Positions 16,061 to 63,740 of a DNA stretch of 64,000 nt are shown piece by piece (position 1 is the first letter of the stretch; each line of letters opens with the position of its first letter). This DNA comes from Arthonia radiata. Taxonomy: Eukaryota; Ascomycota; Arthoniomycetes; Arthoniales; Arthoniaceae. The stretch is taken from NCBI GenBank assembly GCA_002989075.1, contig PSQN01000005.1, positions 496,001 to 560,000 on the forward strand. The letters run 5' to 3'. The notes below the pieces were generated by a model. It was not told the origin of the DNA and did no database searches. It saw only the letters and a program-made list of their open reading frames with translations. A program made the position numbers and the translations under genes.

Positions 16061-16690
16061 CGCCGCCAACAAACACAAGCTTACCACCGTGGCATGCGCT
16101 CCCATTGAATCTCGCAGAAAACTTCGAAATCTTGATCAGCTTTTTAGTAGCGTGGAGGGTGCGGTTTTGGTGAGCAGTCTCGTCTGCATACCGCAAAAGC
16201 GCTAGTATCACTAGCTCATCTTTAATTCCTTGGTGCTTACATTGTGGAAGCCAGCGCACACAGTGGAGGGCCACAGCAAATACAAGTCTACTGTAATGGC
16301 ATGCGCTCCCATCAGATTTCGCTGGAAAGCTCGGAAATGTGGTTAGATTCATGATAGCGTGGACGGTGTAGCCTTGGTGAGCAGTTTGTCGATTTTGAGT
16401 GCGGAATGGCGCCAGTGCTGCTAGCGCATGATGGGTGTCTTGGCGCTACAAGTGTACAAACCCAGCGCACGGAGAGAAAGGCCGCAATATATACGAGCTT
16501 ACCTACCGTACTGGCAGCCACTCCCATCAAATTTCGCTGAAATTTCCGAAACTGTAGTCAGATTTTTACTGGCGTTAATAACACGTTCTGGCGAGGCGGT
16601 TTATCAATCTTAGAGTAAAAAGGATGCTAGTGATGCTAGCGTATGCGGAGTGTCTTGGTGCGATCTATCCGCAAAGAAAAGGCTTCGTCG
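16060..16690. repeat. Degenerate ~210-bp repeat, array 1 (three units)
   Basis: Three units share a core of the form TTACCGTACTGGCATGCG followed by CTCCCATCAAATTTCGC. The CATGCGCTCCCAT element starts at 16093 and 16300, and its variant at 16515, so the spacing is 207 and 215 bp. A second shared element, with GCTAG pairs (TGCTAGCG) and GGTGTCTTGG or similar, sits about 130 bp after each core. Units are clearly diverged. The same unit recurs in array 2 at 20.1-21.1 kb. No coding function is apparent. Confidence 0.75.
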
Positions 16691-17140
16691 GAGGAAATCA
16701 CAACATGCATGCTGCCGCTAGCGCTATGGGTTGTGCTTCGCTCGAGGTCTTGAATCTACGGCCGGAGTTGCTCTAGCAGAGTGCAAATGGCAGCCGCAGC
16801 TCTAATCGTTGACGACACCTAATGGCCCTGGATCCTTCAGGTATTTTCTTCCCATACAACTGAGACTGCAAGTGCTACGCACCCGCAGCTTTGCGCGCGA
16901 CTGTGAGACTGTAATCTGACTCAACCGCGACCGGGGCGTCGAGGTAGCCAGTCGTGACCGGTGAAAGCACGATATCTAGGCATCGACATTATCGCATCCG
17001 CCCAATGCTCCGTCGGCGGAACCAGTGGTGGCACGGTGGATCTGTGACGACCGCCGGTAGCTGAAACAAAGGTCTGACATTTGTAAATGAGGTATATCGA
17101 ACCCATACGACACCGGGTGGCTACGCTCCTACTCGGCGTG
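16691..17140. other. Gene-free stretch in repeat island
   Basis: About 450 bp between the first repeat array and the 1.1-kb duplication. No gene, RNA or repeat was recognised. Confidence 0.35.
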
Positions 17141-19660: not shown

Positions 19661-20129
19661 CAGCTACGTCGGCGTGCAAATAGAGCGACCGAGTTCCGAG
19701 AGAGCTTTCCTGTGCGGCCTCAGTACAATCCTCCTGGCTTGTTTACATCACCGGCTGAGTCCTTCGTTTAAGACTCACAGTTTGTCCCTTGCTTCCTTGA
19801 CCTCCCCTCCCGAGTTGGATATCTTGGTGATCATCTCCCTCCCAAGATCATATCACCCTTGGCATAGAATAAGACCAAGCAAAGCGGTTACGGCCGCCCG
19901 GCGTCACACCCTTCTCATATTCGATCACTACATTTGTTGCCTGGGAATGCTCCTCGCAAGCTAAATTAACAGATGAAATATTTCACTCTCCCAAGACCCG
20001 TTGATGCTTTGGTAAACCAAGGTACAGCTGTTCTTACGAAGCTGGTGCCGCTCCTTGGGAGTGCCAGGGGGAGGGGCTAAAAATTTAGCGCATGATTACA
20101 AGAAGTTAAGGGAGAAGTTGATTTCTTGC
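19661..20129. other. Gene-free stretch
   Basis: No recognisable gene between the LTR-like remnant and the second 210-bp array. Open frames are short and low in coding character. Confidence 0.35.
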
Positions 20130-21085
20130 ATAGCTCACACTACATATGCGTGCTTACCGTACTAGCATCCGCTCCCCTCAAATTTTGCTCAAACGCTCGA
20201 ATCTGTACTCACATTCCTCATAGCGTTGGCATTGCGACCGCTGCGCGCAGTTTCTTGCTCTGAGCCAAGAGGCCGCTAAGGATGGGAGCTAAGCAGCTAG
20301 CCCAGTTCGCATCTTTAGATACTCAGAATGCGATTGCTCGCATGGCTTGCACTACAAATACGTGCTTACTACACTGGCATTCGTTCCCATCAAATTTCGC
20401 CGAAAAGCTTTCATCCGCGATAGGAGTTTGTCTGGCGTTGAGGTTGCGTCCGCTGCACGCAGTTTCTCATTCTGAGCGCGTGTAGCCGCTAAGCGCTAAG
20501 CGCTAAGCGCGAGAAGCGCTTGAGGTACTCAGAGATCCTCTCCTACTTGTACCATAACAGTACACTCAATAGGCTGGCCTCCGCTTCCATCGAATTTTCA
20601 CGAAAAGAACTGCTATGAGGTTTTTGAATTAATAGTGTGGACATGAGAGACGTAAGAGCGGTTCTATTGTTGCGAATGCTGCATTGCGCTAGTATGTGGC
20701 GCTAGGTCGCTAGCGCGGCGCAATGTGCAAGAGAATGATCTCTTGCGCAGACTGCACTACAATTGTATGCTTACCGCACTGGCATGCGCTCCCATCGGAT
20801 TTTCACGAAAAGAACTGCTAAGCCATTTTTAAGAGCATGGCGTTGATATGACAGGCGTGAGAGCGATTCTGTCGTTTTCGAATGCTGTATTGCGCTAGTA
20901 ATGGGCGCTAGATTGCTAATGCATTTCCACGCGGAGCTCGCAAAGAACACTATCTCGCAGAAGGCGCACGAAAATTGTATGCTTATTGCATTGGCATGCG
21001 CTCCCATCAAATTTTGGCGAAAAGAACTGCTAACTGGTTTTTGGAAACGTGGTGTTGGTGTGGGAAGCGTGAGAGGGGATCTGTT
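20130..21085. repeat. Degenerate ~210-bp repeat, array 2 (five units)
   Basis: Five more copies of the unit of array 1. The core (CATGCGCTCCCATC or a variant) starts at 20166, 20378, 20578, 20783 and 20995, spaced 212, 200, 205 and 212 bp. The last three units share an extra segment: GAAAAGAACTGCTA after the core, then AGAGCGRTTCT and TGCGCTAGTA. They are therefore closer relatives and probably amplified later. A small CTAAGCG triplet tandem (about 20490-20512) lies inside unit 2. The array ends about 340 bp from the 3' end of the Myb-like gene. Confidence 0.8.
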
Positions 21086-21420
21086 GAATCACGACTGGAA
21101 AGGGTCTAGCGTCATATTTGCATCTTTGCGTGGGTTCTTCTTCAGGAGAGGAATATTCGACAAGAGGACAGAGGGTGAGAATTTCATACTGTCCAGTCGC
21201 AGAGATATGCTAATTGCGTGGCTGGTTTCTTTGATATGAAACGTAGAATTCAGCATACCCGCCAGCAAATATATAGTCTTCCAAGCCAAGTCATATTTCC
21301 GATCACAGATCATCCGCGCCCTGAATCGATATTGCTCGTGACTCGAACAGTTGATATTGCCGCAGAAGGGCAGAAATGCGCTTGTTACAGCTTCCTCCCC
21401 AATGGAACGTGATCCAGTCT

Positions 21421-34109: not shown

Positions 34110-35235
34110 CCATAGCTGACAGCTGCTATACCCTGTGGCGCTCACAGTGGAGAGTATCCAATAGGGTTACAGCAGCTGGCGGCATTTTGGTCATTCTGAA
34201 TGACACTCCGTGTTCATCGGCGCGACGATGTCGTACCAGTCTGCTGACGCCGGCATGTGTGCGCGTGACTGGCTGCTGCTCGCCGTGTCGCTTACGGTAC
34301 GGGCTATTTGGTAGGATCGTAGCAGCCGGCGGCATTCTGATCGCGAAAAGATCGCATTCCGTGGCCACCGGCACGATGGCATTGTGCCAATCTGCTTGCG
34401 CCAGTGTGTGGGCTTGCGACTCGCTGTTTCTGCCCACTCTGCCACTCTGCGGGGACTTGAAGAAGATCGCAGCTAAAAGCACGTTTTCGAGATGTCTGGA
34501 TCGCTGCCTGAATTGATCAAAACGGAGGTGTCTTACTGTTTATACGCTTTAGAGAGTAGACCCTTGGCTAGCTGCTGCTGTGCACCATGCAAAGCCTTCG
34601 CTAAAGGTACAGGGGAAAGTGTAACTTTAAAATGTCTAGATTACTGCTTTAAACTTATCAATACGGAGGCGTCTTACTGTTCATGGGCAGCGGAGGGTAG
34701 GTCAAGTAGCTAGCTGCTGCTGTGCACCGCGCAATGTTTAGAGGAGAACGTTAGAGCAGTATGCCGCTTTCAATAGTCTACATCGCTGCTTTAGACTCAT
34801 CAATACGGAGACGTCTCACTATTCATACGTTTGGGGGGGCCAGATGCATAGCTAGAGGCTGCTGGGCACTACGCAGATTTTTAGAGAAGATCGTAGCGGA
34901 AGGCACCTTTTCGAGTTGTCTAAATCACTGCCTCAAATTCACGAATACAGCGAGGTCTTCTCATTTGTGCTCACCGAAGGATGTATTCCAAAGCTAGCTG
35001 CTGCTGCGCACTGCGCCAAATCGTTGGAGAGGCGAGAGCAGTACGGCTTGCGCGAATCATCCCTGCCTACTGTGAGAAGAGCGTGTACAGCTAGCTGCCG
35101 CTCGGTATCATGCAGAAGTTTCGAAAAGAGAACAGCGGAAGGCAATGTTTCGACTGTTTGAATTACTGCCTCAGACTCACTCAAGCGGAGGCGCCTTCCT
35201 ATTCATGCACTGCAGAGGGCAGATCCATAGTTGGT
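34110..35235. repeat. Degenerate ~141-bp tandem repeat array
   Basis: A core of the form ATCAATACGGAGGCGTCTTA, followed by TAGCTAGCTGCTGCTGTGCAC about 50 bp later, recurs. The ACGGAGG element lies at 34522, 34663, 34805, 34947 (variant) and 35184, spaced 141, 142, 142 and 237 bp. Each unit also has a GTCTAGATYRCTGC-like segment before the core. Two units of a related kind, with GGCGGCATT at about 34178 and 34328 (150 bp apart) and GTGTGNGCNTGNGACT, precede them. Units are degenerate. The array ends at the 3' end of a small F-box-like gene. Confidence 0.75.
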
Positions 35236-35257
35236 TGTCTGCTGTCACCCTCACCGT

Positions 35258-58689: not shown

Positions 58690-59245
58690 CTTCAGAGGTT
58701 GCTTGGAAGAGTGAATATTAGACATGGGATATGATCTTAATTAGGTTCGGCAGCTTCACGCCGGTGGTGTTGTCGTGGATTGCAGGGTTCCAATGTGTTC
58801 GCGGTAGCTTGTCGCTGCTGTTGCTTCCCGTTCGGATAGAACCTTTCACTGCAAAAGATACAGCACAGCCGAGAAGATGAAGAGTTTCTCCTTTCGAGTT
58901 CATTGAGTTGCGCGGGCGGAAAAGCGAGAAGATGGCGTCGTTAAGCATGTTCCTGTTTGCCTGAGCTGGGAGGACGTTTGGAAGGGTGAATATCAAATAT
59001 GAGATATGATCCTGACATGGGTTGGCAGCATCATGCTGGAGTGCTGGCGGTGATTTGGAGGGGTCGACTGTGCTTGTAGTAGCTTGTCGCTGCTGTCGCT
59101 TCCCGTTCGCCTGGACCCTTTTTCTGCAAAAGATACAGCACAGCTGAGAAGATAAAGAGCTTCTCTTTTCGAGTTTGTTGGGTTGCGCCGGCGCAAGGGT
59201 GAGGGGATGCTGTCATCATACAGGATCTTATTCGCCTGAGCTGGC
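58690..59245 (-). repeat. Direct repeat pair A, ~275-bp units
   Basis: Two adjacent diverged copies, about 58690-58970 and 58971-59245. Shared landmarks GCAAAAGATACAGCACAGC start at 58851 and 59126, an offset of 275 bp. GTAGCTTGTCGCTGCTGT and GAATAT..ATGGGATATGATC also match. Read on the minus strand both copies keep an open frame with LSCAVSFAEKGS versus LGCAVSFAVKGS and both stop at the same point after IISH. This may be remnants of a duplicated gene. Confidence 0.7.
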
Positions 59246-59284: not shown

Positions 59285-59750
59285 GTATTTGTTGTGATCG
59301 TTTCGAAGATCTCATTCTGCAGCAAATACCGAAGTTGAAACGTGTTCAGTGTTGGATCCTGTAGCGTCGCGCCGGCGAAAGAGCAATGGAAACGAACATC
59401 TGAGACTGCGCTGGATATGGTGTCGACGCTCTTACCTCGAGTCTTGTAATGAGCTCTAAGACCAAACGTGGGAGCAACAGCCAGGGCTCGCATTGGGATC
59501 AGGATTGAACGCAGCCTTGGTCGTGTCTAATATTTTCGAAGATCTCACTTACAGCAAGCACCGAAGTTGAAGCGGGTTCAGGATTGGGCCAAAGGGCGTC
59601 GCGCCGGCGTAAGAGCAATGAAAGCGCGCATCTGACACTGGTCTGCATGCAGTGTCGACGCTCTTACCTCGAGCCCTTATAATGAACTCGAGGAGTAAAC
59701 ATGAGAGCAATAGCCAGGGTTCGCATTGGGATCAGGATCGATTCAAATCT
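59285..59750 (-). repeat. Direct repeat pair B, ~232-bp units
   Basis: Two adjacent copies, about 59285-59515 and 59516-59750. GTCGCGCCGGCG occurs at 59366 and 59598 and TCGCATTGGGATCAGGA at about 59490 and 59722, both an offset of 232 bp. GTGTCGACGCTCTTACCTCGAG is also shared. On the minus strand both begin ATGCGAACCCTGGC or ATGCGAGCCCTGGC, so they could be two copies of a first exon whose continuation is repeat A. Confidence 0.7.
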
Positions 59751-60764: not shown

Positions 60765-61079
60765 ATGTCGGACTCAGCGCCCAATGCGGCCATTGCGCTG
60801 GCGTCGACGGATTCAGACGAGCGAAAGCTTCCTACACTACCTCCAGAGATACTCTTGAAGATCTGTGCTGATTTCATCGACAACACCTACTACGACTATA
60901 TTGAAAAGTTCGTGGCCAACAACCACAATCATGTCAACCGCCTCAAGTCGTGCCTTAGGAAAAGATTGTCCGGCGAACCACTCAACATCGATGATGAGAC
61001 GCAATATGCGCACATTGCCAGCGCAGGGGATAGCGGGCATGAATTGAACAGCGCCTCCTCTCTGGCCCCTATTCCTTGA
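60765..61079 (+). CDS. Small F-box-like protein
   Basis: A 104-residue frame from ATG 60765 (MSDSAPNAAIALASTDSDER); an in-frame ATG 90 bases upstream (60675) is possible. The segment LPTLPPEILLKICADFIDNT is F-box-like, followed by VNRLKSCLRKRLSGEPLNID. This second motif is shared with the neighbour at 61509 (LHRLEGCLTKKLTGVPLSTP), so the two are paralogues. This copy lacks the long C-terminal part of that neighbour and may be truncated, or its second exon may be missed. Its last 30 bases resemble fragments at 62850, 63174 and 63458. Confidence 0.55.
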   Translation: MSDSAPNAAIALASTDSDERKLPTLPPEILLKICADFIDNTYYDYIEKFVANNHNHVNRLKSCLRKRLSGEPLNIDDETQYAHIASAGDSGHELNSASSLAPIP

Positions 61080-61508
61080 GTCCCAATCAATTTATAAGAA
61101 TGCGTAGCTGCTGGCGCGCAAATGGAGGCATAATACACAGGTGAGGCATGCCAGCTGCCACAAATCCACCCAAGGTTCGCACAGCAAAGTCGAGGGGAGG
61201 GAGAAGGAGCCGCAGAAGCTCAATAAGCTCCAGAGCAGAGGCGCGGCTGTACATACTAGCATAGAATAGCGAGACAGGACACCGACTCTGCAGCTCTGCT
61301 GTACTCGAAGGTATCTCTCCGGTGCCGCGAATTGGCGAGGCGGTACCCTTTCTCCAGAGGTAACTGGTGCATCACAACTAATTGGGTTAGCGCTTCAAGT
61401 CGTTTCCCAATCGACAGACGTGTGTTTACGTCCTCTCAGCTTCTTTCTCCTGCAGCCATTCGCAGTGTTCAGCTCCTCTTGTAGTCCTCCAGTACTGTCA
61501 TCGCTCCA
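61080..61508. other. Intergenic region between paralogues
   Basis: 429 bp without a recognised gene. It contains the promoter of the gene at 61509, with a pyrimidine-rich stretch (about 61420-61500) before the start. Confidence 0.35.
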
Positions 61509-62784
61509 ATGGCGTCGCGTATCTCAGGAGGGGAAGAGAACCCCACACTCCCCACACAACTGCTCTCACACTACACCACCGCATTCATCAACGACGCATA
61601 CGCTAACCATCTTACTGAGATCTCCGCCGGCCACGATGACATCCTCCACCGCCTCGAGGGCTGCCTCACCAAGAAGCTCACTGGCGTTCCTCTTTCCACT
61701 CCAGACATGTCCGATTACTTGAGCTTTTTCGGCGGATCAGGTGAGCCTGCTCTACCGATGCTGAAGCTTCTTCAAGCCGCTAATAGTCAAGTATAGAGGT
61801 CGCAGTCGTCCGTGAAAGCCGCCCGTACGCTTCGCTGTTCTTTCCTGGCCAAACGCTGTACATCCCGATCCAACCAAAGATGCTCGAGCTTCCCCGGCTG
61901 CCTGAGCCAACTCATCGCTATTCGGACGAGGCCATCAATCTTGTCAGCACCTACCCCTCCCTCCACAATATGGTCTACTGGCATGCAAGAACACAGTACG
62001 GCGGCATCACCGTATTTAGCGAGGATGACGCGGGAATGGAGGGCAGTGGAACGCTCGAGGCCTTCGAATTCGCTGAGGTATGTCTACAGCCCCTGCCCTG
62101 ATCTTTCAATTGTTTCTGGAAGGCAATCTAGCAGCTCAAGAGGAGGTGTTGTTCAGATACGGTCGTCCTGAAAGCAATACACACTCGCGCGTGTGCTGTT
62201 TGTGCATCATGCTAACACTTCAGGCTCTAGGTATGTCTACAGCATCTACACTGGTTCTCCTATCCTTTCTGGAAGGCAATCCAGCACCTGAGGTAGACGC
62301 ATTGACTGAATACTTTCAATTCGGAAGCAAATCAATCTCGCGCGTGTGCTCTTTACGTACCATGCTAATACCTGCGTTTTAGTATATGTTACGAACCTAC
62401 CTGCCGCTCCACGAATTCATGGCTTGTCAACGGGCGCGTCTCGACAACCGCGTGGCGATGGAGATGAAGGGTGAGCTTGACACGGTGGTGGCAACACTGG
62501 GACCCTCACTCCCGCAGCACCCATCAGCGCTTCAGCAGTTTCGCCAGTACGACGACCCAGTATATGAACGGGATGAACTGCAAATCTCTGGCGATGATAC
62601 CGACGAGGAGGACGAGGGTGGAGTCGGCTGGGCGACGGCGCTGCAACGACGCGCGTACAGTGAAGAAGAGGAGAAGGAGGAGGGAGAAGAAGAGGAGAAG
62701 GAGGAGGGAGAAGAAGAGAAAGAGGGTGAGGCAGGCTGGGCCACAGCTCTCCAACAGCATGCGCGCATGCGACATGCATGGTGA
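61509..62784 (+). CDS. F-box-like family protein with acidic repeat tail
   Basis: Three exons: 61509-61740, 61797-62077 and 62383-62784. The product is 304 residues. The N-terminus has LPTQLLSHYTTAFINDAYAN and HRLEGCLTKKLTGVPLSTPD, paralogous to the protein at 60765. The middle exon is well ordered: EVAVVRESRPYASLFFPGQT, LYIPIQPKMLELPRLPEPTH, SLHNMVYWHARTQYGGITVF. The last exon has YMLRTYLPLHEFMACQRARL, then WATALQRR, a Glu/Lys/Gly repeat of about 25 residues (EEEKEEG units), and a second WATALQQH. Removing everything between 62078 and 62382 joins AEFAE-type sequence to YMLRTY in phase. That 305-nt intron is itself a tandem duplication. Function unknown. Confidence 0.65.
62078..62382 (+). repeat. 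Tandemly duplicated intron with AG|GT junction
   Basis: The intron consists of two diverged copies, 62078-62230 (153 nt) and 62231-62382 (152 nt). Both start GTATGTCTACAGC, share TTTCTGGAAGGCAATC and CTCGCGCGTGTGCT, and have GCTAACAC or GCTAATAC branch-like sites near the end. Both end in TAG. Copy 1 ends CTCTAG directly followed by the GTATGT of copy 2, leaving no exon between them. Only removal of both copies keeps the reading frame as predicted. Confidence 0.8.
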
Positions 62785-63740
62785 CATGCAGGCATTAATG
62801 AGACAGCACAAGAGCATGGCGTGAATAAAGCCGCTCGCGCTCTGGATCGACAGTGCCTCCTCCTTGGCTTCCCTTCCATTGGCCCGATTCAATTACCAAT
62901 ACTGCGTGATATCTGTCACTACTCATCCAAATCAAGTCCTTTCAGACTAATCACGAGGGTAGACTGCTCGTAGGAAGGCAGGTATGAGAGAGAGTAAAGA
63001 GGGATGATGCGTTGACATCGTTTCGACCGCCGATTGATCCACGCCTCGTCCCTGGGTTCTCTACGACTTGATTCAGACAACATCTCCAACCTCGTAATGG
63101 CTGTCAGTATGATAGGCGAGTGAAGACAAATAGCCCAGCAGTACCTGTGAACGGAGCCGAAAACGCTTACATTAAGCAATGCCTCCTTTCTAGCTCCTAT
63201 TCTGCGCGTTTCAATCAAATTGTGAGGTTCAGTGGCGGCTGTGTTCGATTCTTGAGATCAACCTCGAAGGACAGCACAGCAATTGTGTGTGTACAGACCG
63301 CCTCGAACTCGAGAAAAACCGCGGCTCCTCCCTGGCTCGCATTCCGCGCGCTTGAGTCCTTGAGTAAAAATTATATTGCAGCTCCGACATAGGTTTCGTT
63401 CAATACCGAGCGACAGTATAGCAGAAGTCTGTGCGCCGAGCATCCCCAGTGGCACATAAGCAATGCCTCTCCCCTGGCGACTCTCCGGTGTGTCTTGAAT
63501 ATTGACTAAACGAGTGCAGTAGCTCGAACATCCGAACTTTGCGTATCTTGCCCGGGGCTCGACTAAGGACTTTGCTGAGGCTTGCGATGCGCTTCTCACC
63601 TCTGCTCGGCAATCTACGTCATTGGCTTCAAACTGTTTCCTCATCAAGAGCTTCTAACCGCACACAGCACCTGAAGATCCCGGCCCCGTTTCAATTATTT
63701 CTTCGAAACTCATAAACAGCGACCGATATCCAACAGCGAT
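62785..63740. other. Region with gene fragments
   Basis: About 950 bp with no intact gene. It holds three fragments resembling the 3' end of the small F-box-like gene at 60765, with the shared element CARTGCCTCCTYYCTGGC or similar. They start at about 62850, 63174 and 63458; the parent copy is at 61047. They probably mark decayed tandem copies. Confidence 0.5.

Follow-up and report, generated by a model that had tools for sequence, protein, structure and literature searches.

The predicted gene at 61509–62784 of the window (the whole 64-kb stretch of DNA that was analysed) carries between exons 2 and 3 two homologous sequences that lie head to tail, are noncoding by codon bias and each hold a full set of splice-like elements; the frame runs on to the stop codon of exon 3 only when both are removed (Table 1). 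The pair is likely a doubled intron. In the explanation that we favour, at slightly better than even confidence, exons 2 and 3 would once have been parted by a single ordinary U2-type intron of some 152 nt; this would have been copied head to tail, in place and long ago, each copy would have kept its full set of splice signals, and the two would most likely be removed one at a time, whichever goes first, alongside a parallel route that excises all 305 nt in one step. Were copy 1 to leave first through the TAG at 62230, the donor of copy 2 would come to stand directly at the exon, and the remaining reaction would be a recursive (ratchet) step. Transcription and splicing of the region, these routes of removal and a doubling in the DNA itself are what we infer.

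Table 1 Predicted exons and introns of the host gene, and conserved blocks within the two intron copies
Feature	Position	Strand	Remarks
Exon 1, predicted	61509-61740	+	Codon score +0.198 bits/codon in own frame; other five frames negative
Intron 1, predicted, 56 nt	61741-61796	+	GTGAGC...TAG; alternative acceptor CAG 61805 also in frame
Exon 2, predicted, ending ...GCTGAG	61797-62077	+	Codon score +0.193 in the frame continuing exon 1
Intron copy 1, predicted	62078-62230	+	GTATGT donor 62078, GCTAAC 62211, TAG acceptor 62230; earlier CAG 62223
Block A in copy 1	62113-62136 (partner 62266-62289)	+	Columns 36-59, 22/24 identical
Block B in copy 1	62184-62201 (partner 62337-62354)	+	Columns 107-124, 17/18 identical
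Micro-exon GCTCTAG, 7 nt	62224-62230	+	Would arise if CAG 62223 were the acceptor; frameshift, 203-aa product
Intron copy 2, predicted	62231-62382	+	GTATGT donor 62231 adjoining copy 1, GCTAAT 62364, TAG 62382
Exon 3, predicted, acidic repeat and stop codon	62383-62784	+	Codon score +0.150; other five frames negative

The host gene was delineated by codon usage, with a codon table whose training set was nine long open frames from the window, none of them an annotated gene. The positive codon frames of the three exons join exactly when intron 1 and the 305 nt are removed, giving a predicted product of 304 aa; among the other frames of exon 2, one minus-strand frame scored +0.05 and the remainder were negative. 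A Pfam search assigned the predicted protein to no family at E up to 1. Its residues 1–70 share 33% identity (E about 1e-11) with the product of a frame starting at 60765, and this resemblance supports exon 1 as predicted. The frame itself (60765–61079, 104 aa), whose start is similar to host exon 1, looks like a truncated relative, and it is uninformative on the pair because it stops short of the corresponding place. Within exon 3, a 24-nt tandem repeat at 62662–62725 encodes the acidic stretch, which lies between two GWATALQ motifs.

The initial annotation had described two head-to-tail copies of about 152 nt at 62078–62382 and had named similarity no better than chance as an outcome that would refute it. 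A MAFFT alignment of copy 1 (153 nt) with copy 2 (152 nt) spans 153 columns and contains one gap of 1 nt; of its 152 ungapped columns, 104 are identical, the remainder being 30 transitions and 18 transversions (K2P 0.43). The local alignment score of the copies is 73, whereas 2,000 dinucleotide shuffles reached at most 29, so the similarity lies beyond chance and the description stands. By blastn, 62076–62218 matched 62229–62371 at 70% identity (E = 5e-13 in the last 3.5 kb, 1.7e-10 in the 64-kb window), the match beginning two bases 5′ of both donors with the AG common to both. The homology proper starts at the donor and is strong as far as the branch element; the final 12 alignment columns, 11 of them ungapped, hold 6 matches, a weak 3′ end, and similarity alone does not establish that the copies correspond as far as the acceptor. 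As adjacent homologous units, the copies have the form of a tandem DNA duplication. The pair was listed neither by Tandem Repeats Finder nor by an ungapped repeat finder run at default settings on 61500–63000. No third copy was found in the 64-kb window, either by blastn (next best E = 0.31) or with a profile built from the two. Intron 1, exon 2 and exon 3 were also considered as sites of a further copy or of a remnant turned into exon, and this was rejected, with scores not clearly above those of shuffles; the strongest candidate, the opening 40 nt of exon 3, was equalled by 43 of 500 shuffles, and intron 1 resembled the two copies no more than its shuffles did. A structured intronic RNA was likewise rejected on the basis of Rfam, fold stability and covariation: the pair has no Rfam match at the gathering level, and the single row returned at the permissive level (E = 9.8) is no better than chance, the fold stability of the copies is unremarkable (z of +0.50 and -0.78), their consensus fold energy was equalled in 28 of 400 column shuffles, and the four double changes in that fold were reached in 112 of 400. 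The repeat finder listed no inverted repeats in the pair, and a tRNA search returned none.

Each copy has the GTATGT, GCTAAY and TAG elements that the initial annotation had assigned to it. With GT, branch element and YAG in place, a codon score that is negative in all six frames and an open reading frame on removal, each predicted copy has the features of a U2-type intron. Of the six splicing outcomes followed in silico, removal of the full 305 nt was the only one to reach the stop of exon 3 (304 aa). Retention of copy 1 or of both copies leads to a stop after 178 aa, retention of copy 2 to a stop after 192 aa, and retention of copy 2 after use of CAG 62223 to a stop after 223 aa. The earlier proposal that the frame survives only if both copies are removed thus applies to the full protein, but not to frame arithmetic, since copy 1 (153 nt) or 62224–62382 (159 nt) could be retained in frame by length, yet stops precede exon 3. 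Removal of copy 1 first, of copy 2 first or of both in one step would give the same mRNA; recursion is therefore permitted, not required, and recursive splicing at the pair is possible.

The choice of acceptor in copy 1 bears on whether there is a zero-length exon, as had been proposed. Such an exon would exist if TAG 62230 is used; CAG 62223, which had gone unmentioned, is the first acceptor after the copy 1 branch, and its use would abolish the zero-length exon and leave a micro-exon instead. This competing site counts against the zero-length exon of the favoured explanation. A crude intron finder, whose output does not amount to a gene annotation, returned 11 candidate introns (median 65 nt); it picked CAG 62223 for copy 1 and CAG 61805 for intron 1, and copy 2 was unlisted. 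From the branch A, the acceptor lies at 15 nt in copy 1 (TAG 62230) and 14 nt in copy 2, compared with 8 nt for CAG 62223; counted from the end of the branch element, the TAGs of copies 1 and 2 follow after 11 and 10 nt, and CAG 62223 after 4 nt. Three Lipomyces introns shown in part of PMC7138796 have 7, 10 and 12 nt between these elements, and the short branch distance would, by analogy, speak against use of CAG 62223. The pair also has the order of elements expected of a ratchet point, an acceptor followed by a donor inside an intron (TAG/GTATGT at 62228–62236). The proposed AG/GT ratchet point is accordingly present as a juxtaposition, but the string itself is at chance level (YAG + GTRNGY was seen 13 times against 11.5 expected on both strands of the 64-kb window) and CAG 62223 competes with it. 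What makes the juxtaposition meaningful is the duplication together with the full element set of each copy, not the string.

Use of CAG 62223 would also allow an alternative last exon, in which copy 2 is kept and a 223-aa isoform results, an outcome compatible with the doubled-intron explanation that we nevertheless consider hardly probable. It has in its favour that, once copy 1 is spliced to CAG 62223, the reading frame meets no stop in copy 2 before the TAG acceptor of that copy, and that a forward frame of 100 codons, which begins at the ATG within the first donor and extends as far as the final TAG, is open, a length reached in some forward frame by 48 of 2,000 shuffles; in the first 74 ungapped columns, moreover, third positions differ slightly more than the others (9/25 versus 6/24 and 5/25). 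Across the whole alignment this third-position excess disappears (12/50, 13/48 and 13/49), and the codon score of the 100-codon open frame is negative, at -0.06 to -0.15. The lack of a third-position excess over the whole alignment and the negative codon scores of both copies led us to reject a coding tandem repeat.

The copies could instead be no intron pair at all but a tandem repeat, noncoding and diverged, that separates two genes, the first ending near 62098 and the second starting at the ATG at 62386, with splice-like ends that arose by coincidence. The in-frame ATG three bases into exon 3, the five other apparently noncoding duplication clusters of the window and the chance-level frequency of AG/GT strings speak for such a repeat. 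It would leave to coincidence the intron-like positions of donor, branch element and acceptor in both copies, the conservation of the donor region in 13 of 13 columns and of the branch region in 10 of 11, and the fit of the frame, and we judge an intergenic repeat to be very unlikely.

A doubled intron raises the question of how the second copy arose. A plus-strand self-comparison of the window (E up to 1e-4) detected five further tandem-duplication clusters, at 16067–16564, 20120–21086, 34461–35249, 58695–59244 and 59301–59741. Codon scores were at most 0.05 in six pairs examined from the five clusters and three single copies were open in one minus-strand frame; by these scores the clusters are likely noncoding. 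Two other duplications diverged much like the pair, with 63 mismatches, 42 transitions and 2 gaps in one and 39, 26 and 2 in the other, against 48, 30 and 1 here, a common style of few gaps and about two thirds transitions. Because the window is rich in local duplications and holds no other copy in its 64 kb, a local event is favoured as the simplest origin of the doubled intron. In Zymoseptoria tritici, intron duplications other than those of introner-like elements (ILEs), tandem ones included, account for <1% of single intron gains according to the portion of PMC4457414 that treats them, which counts against local duplication. Local duplication by itself gives no account of boundaries that fall on splice sites. 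The beginning of the intron faintly resembles that of exon 3 (TATGTCTAC/TATGTTAC), a resemblance that could have guided the duplication boundaries but lacks significance, with scores as high in 43 and 65 of 500 shuffles.

As judged from the K2P distance of 0.43, the duplication event is old, not fresh, and the phrase 'snapshot of intron growth' in the initial annotation overstates its recency. Repeat-induced point mutation was rejected as the cause of divergence, as there is no CpA excess: by next base, changed C residues number 5 each before A, C and T, and 3 before G.

Of the clusters, those at 16067–16700 and 20120–21090 are arrays of about 3 and 5 related units of about 205–212 nt, whose common core approximates GGCATGCGCTCCCATCAAATTT; they have neither an Rfam match at the gathering level nor a clear coding frame. 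At 34461–35249 lies a diverged tandem array with a spacing of ~140 nt, in which the pair examined has stops in all six frames. A 275-nt unit is duplicated at 58695–59244 with no spacer and 77% identity, and beside it, at 59301–59741, is a duplication at 233-nt spacing (81%); both are apparently noncoding or decayed.

Insertion would offer another origin, in which the copies are two ILEs of one family and the second landed at the AG/GT where the last bases of the exon meet the donor of an intron already present, with no local duplication involved. We regard this as rather unlikely, though insertion at GAG/GTATGT would produce exactly the observed layout. ILEs are described as long beside regular fungal introns in the relevant part of PMC4457414 and as preferring AG/GY sites in work cited in PMC8469720, and the conserved interior blocks of the copies could be the consensus of an ILE family. 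However, exon 3 starts with TA, not with the GY that ILE insertion would want, and although PMC8469720 describes fungal ILEs as structured, the copies have neither an unusually stable fold nor an inverted repeat among those listed by the repeat finder. No other copy was found in the 64 kb, a weak point given that, by our own estimate, about one or none would be expected even with hundreds per genome. Neither terminal inverted repeats nor target duplications are reported for ascomycete introners in PMC9860276, and the absence of such marks therefore cannot decide an ILE origin.

The interior of the copies is conserved as a mosaic. Outside the donor and branch regions (columns 14–128), 74 of 115 columns are identical, and these include two nearly identical blocks (A and B in Table 1) of 24 and 18 columns, whereas identity around them is about 50% (11/22 in columns 14–35 and 23/47 in columns 60–106), a poor fit to plain neutral drift. 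The longest identical runs in columns 14–128 are of 16 and 14, and a second-longest run of at least 14 occurred in 15 of 50,000 permutations; the block limits were chosen post hoc from the alignment, and the permutation test spans the whole interior. With up to 3 mismatches, the 16-nt core of block A and block B each have two sites only in the window. Neither an RNA family in Rfam nor an unusual fold explains the mosaic, which could come from constraint, from partial gene conversion or from descent of both copies from a family consensus. A stronger version of the doubled-intron explanation seems to us unlikely: the intron would have been doubled whole, both copies would still work as introns and enclose a genuine zero-length exon, each would be spliced independently of the other and in either order, and selection would hold both blocks in both copies, giving the pair a role beyond its removal. 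A match to the block A core in a viral contig (L001) was taken as a chance match: blastn shares 21–22 nt, and the profile spans 44 nt with an E of 0.00029 that is not independent, L001 having been chosen for containing that core. It sits in an open frame of 193 aa that reaches the locus border without ending. Further scans of viral and prokaryote collections gave 0 matches, and as these collections are not fungal, the zeros mean little.

Among known systems, intron gain by tandem genomic duplication is reportedly a process in which a new intron is made from duplicated exon sequence containing AGGT, whereas here an existing intron would have been doubled whole. The likeness is that local duplication is linked to intron content (PMC4974935, in part). 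Stwintrons, characterized in sections of PMC7138796 as complex intervening sequences of two U2 introns that undergo consecutive splicing in fungi, include the types [D1,2] and 'sensu lato'. The same sections report that in Lipomyces starkeyi a stwintron is removed by one step and by two steps, both of which occur, making this the nearest working analogue, with two introns at one place and one or two reactions; the Lipomyces introns are nested with abutting donors (PMC7138796), however, and the pair here is not nested. In contrast to a stwintron, the pair has the complete donor of copy 2 lying beyond the end of copy 1, and its units are similar over their length; since the second donor is whole, the pair lacks the interrupted splice element of a strict stwintron ([D], [L] or [A]). 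Like ratchet points, the pair has an acceptor followed by a donor, and a first removal would restore the exon donor; ratchet points, as presented in portions of PMC8605326, PMC6110457 and PMC5126111, belong to long introns of fly and human, whereas this intron is 305 nt, would be a product of duplication and is indifferent to order in its product. The copies resemble the ILEs of Dothideomycetes in being sequence-similar introns, long for fungi and equipped with splice signals, but the ILE pairs given in part of PMC4457414 (n = 4) lie 145–626 bp apart, whereas the copies here are tandem and exon-free. A limited literature search over titles and abstract openings found no report of a doubled whole fungal intron with a zero-length exon.

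If spliced as proposed, the locus would be a compact natural test of nearest-site pairing, which yields two small introns, against pairing across the 305-nt span, and of whether intron doubling alone can create recursive splicing; it would also mean that duplication at the DNA level can lengthen an intron without exon cost. The likeness of the two halves shows that both parts of such a complex intron share their descent. From the sequence the claim is a modest one, and what is new here are the five other duplication clusters of the window and the two near-identical interior blocks. Elsewhere in the window, 30515–30799 matches the fungal U3 small nucleolar RNA (Rfam RF01846, 126.9 bits); this match and the gene content point to a fungus as the source, and we would guess at an ascomycete. 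Near the host gene, a regional self-comparison showed short degenerate intergenic repeats of borderline significance (E 0.01 to 0.44) at 61048–61105, 62850–62907, 63173–63221 and 63457–63469.
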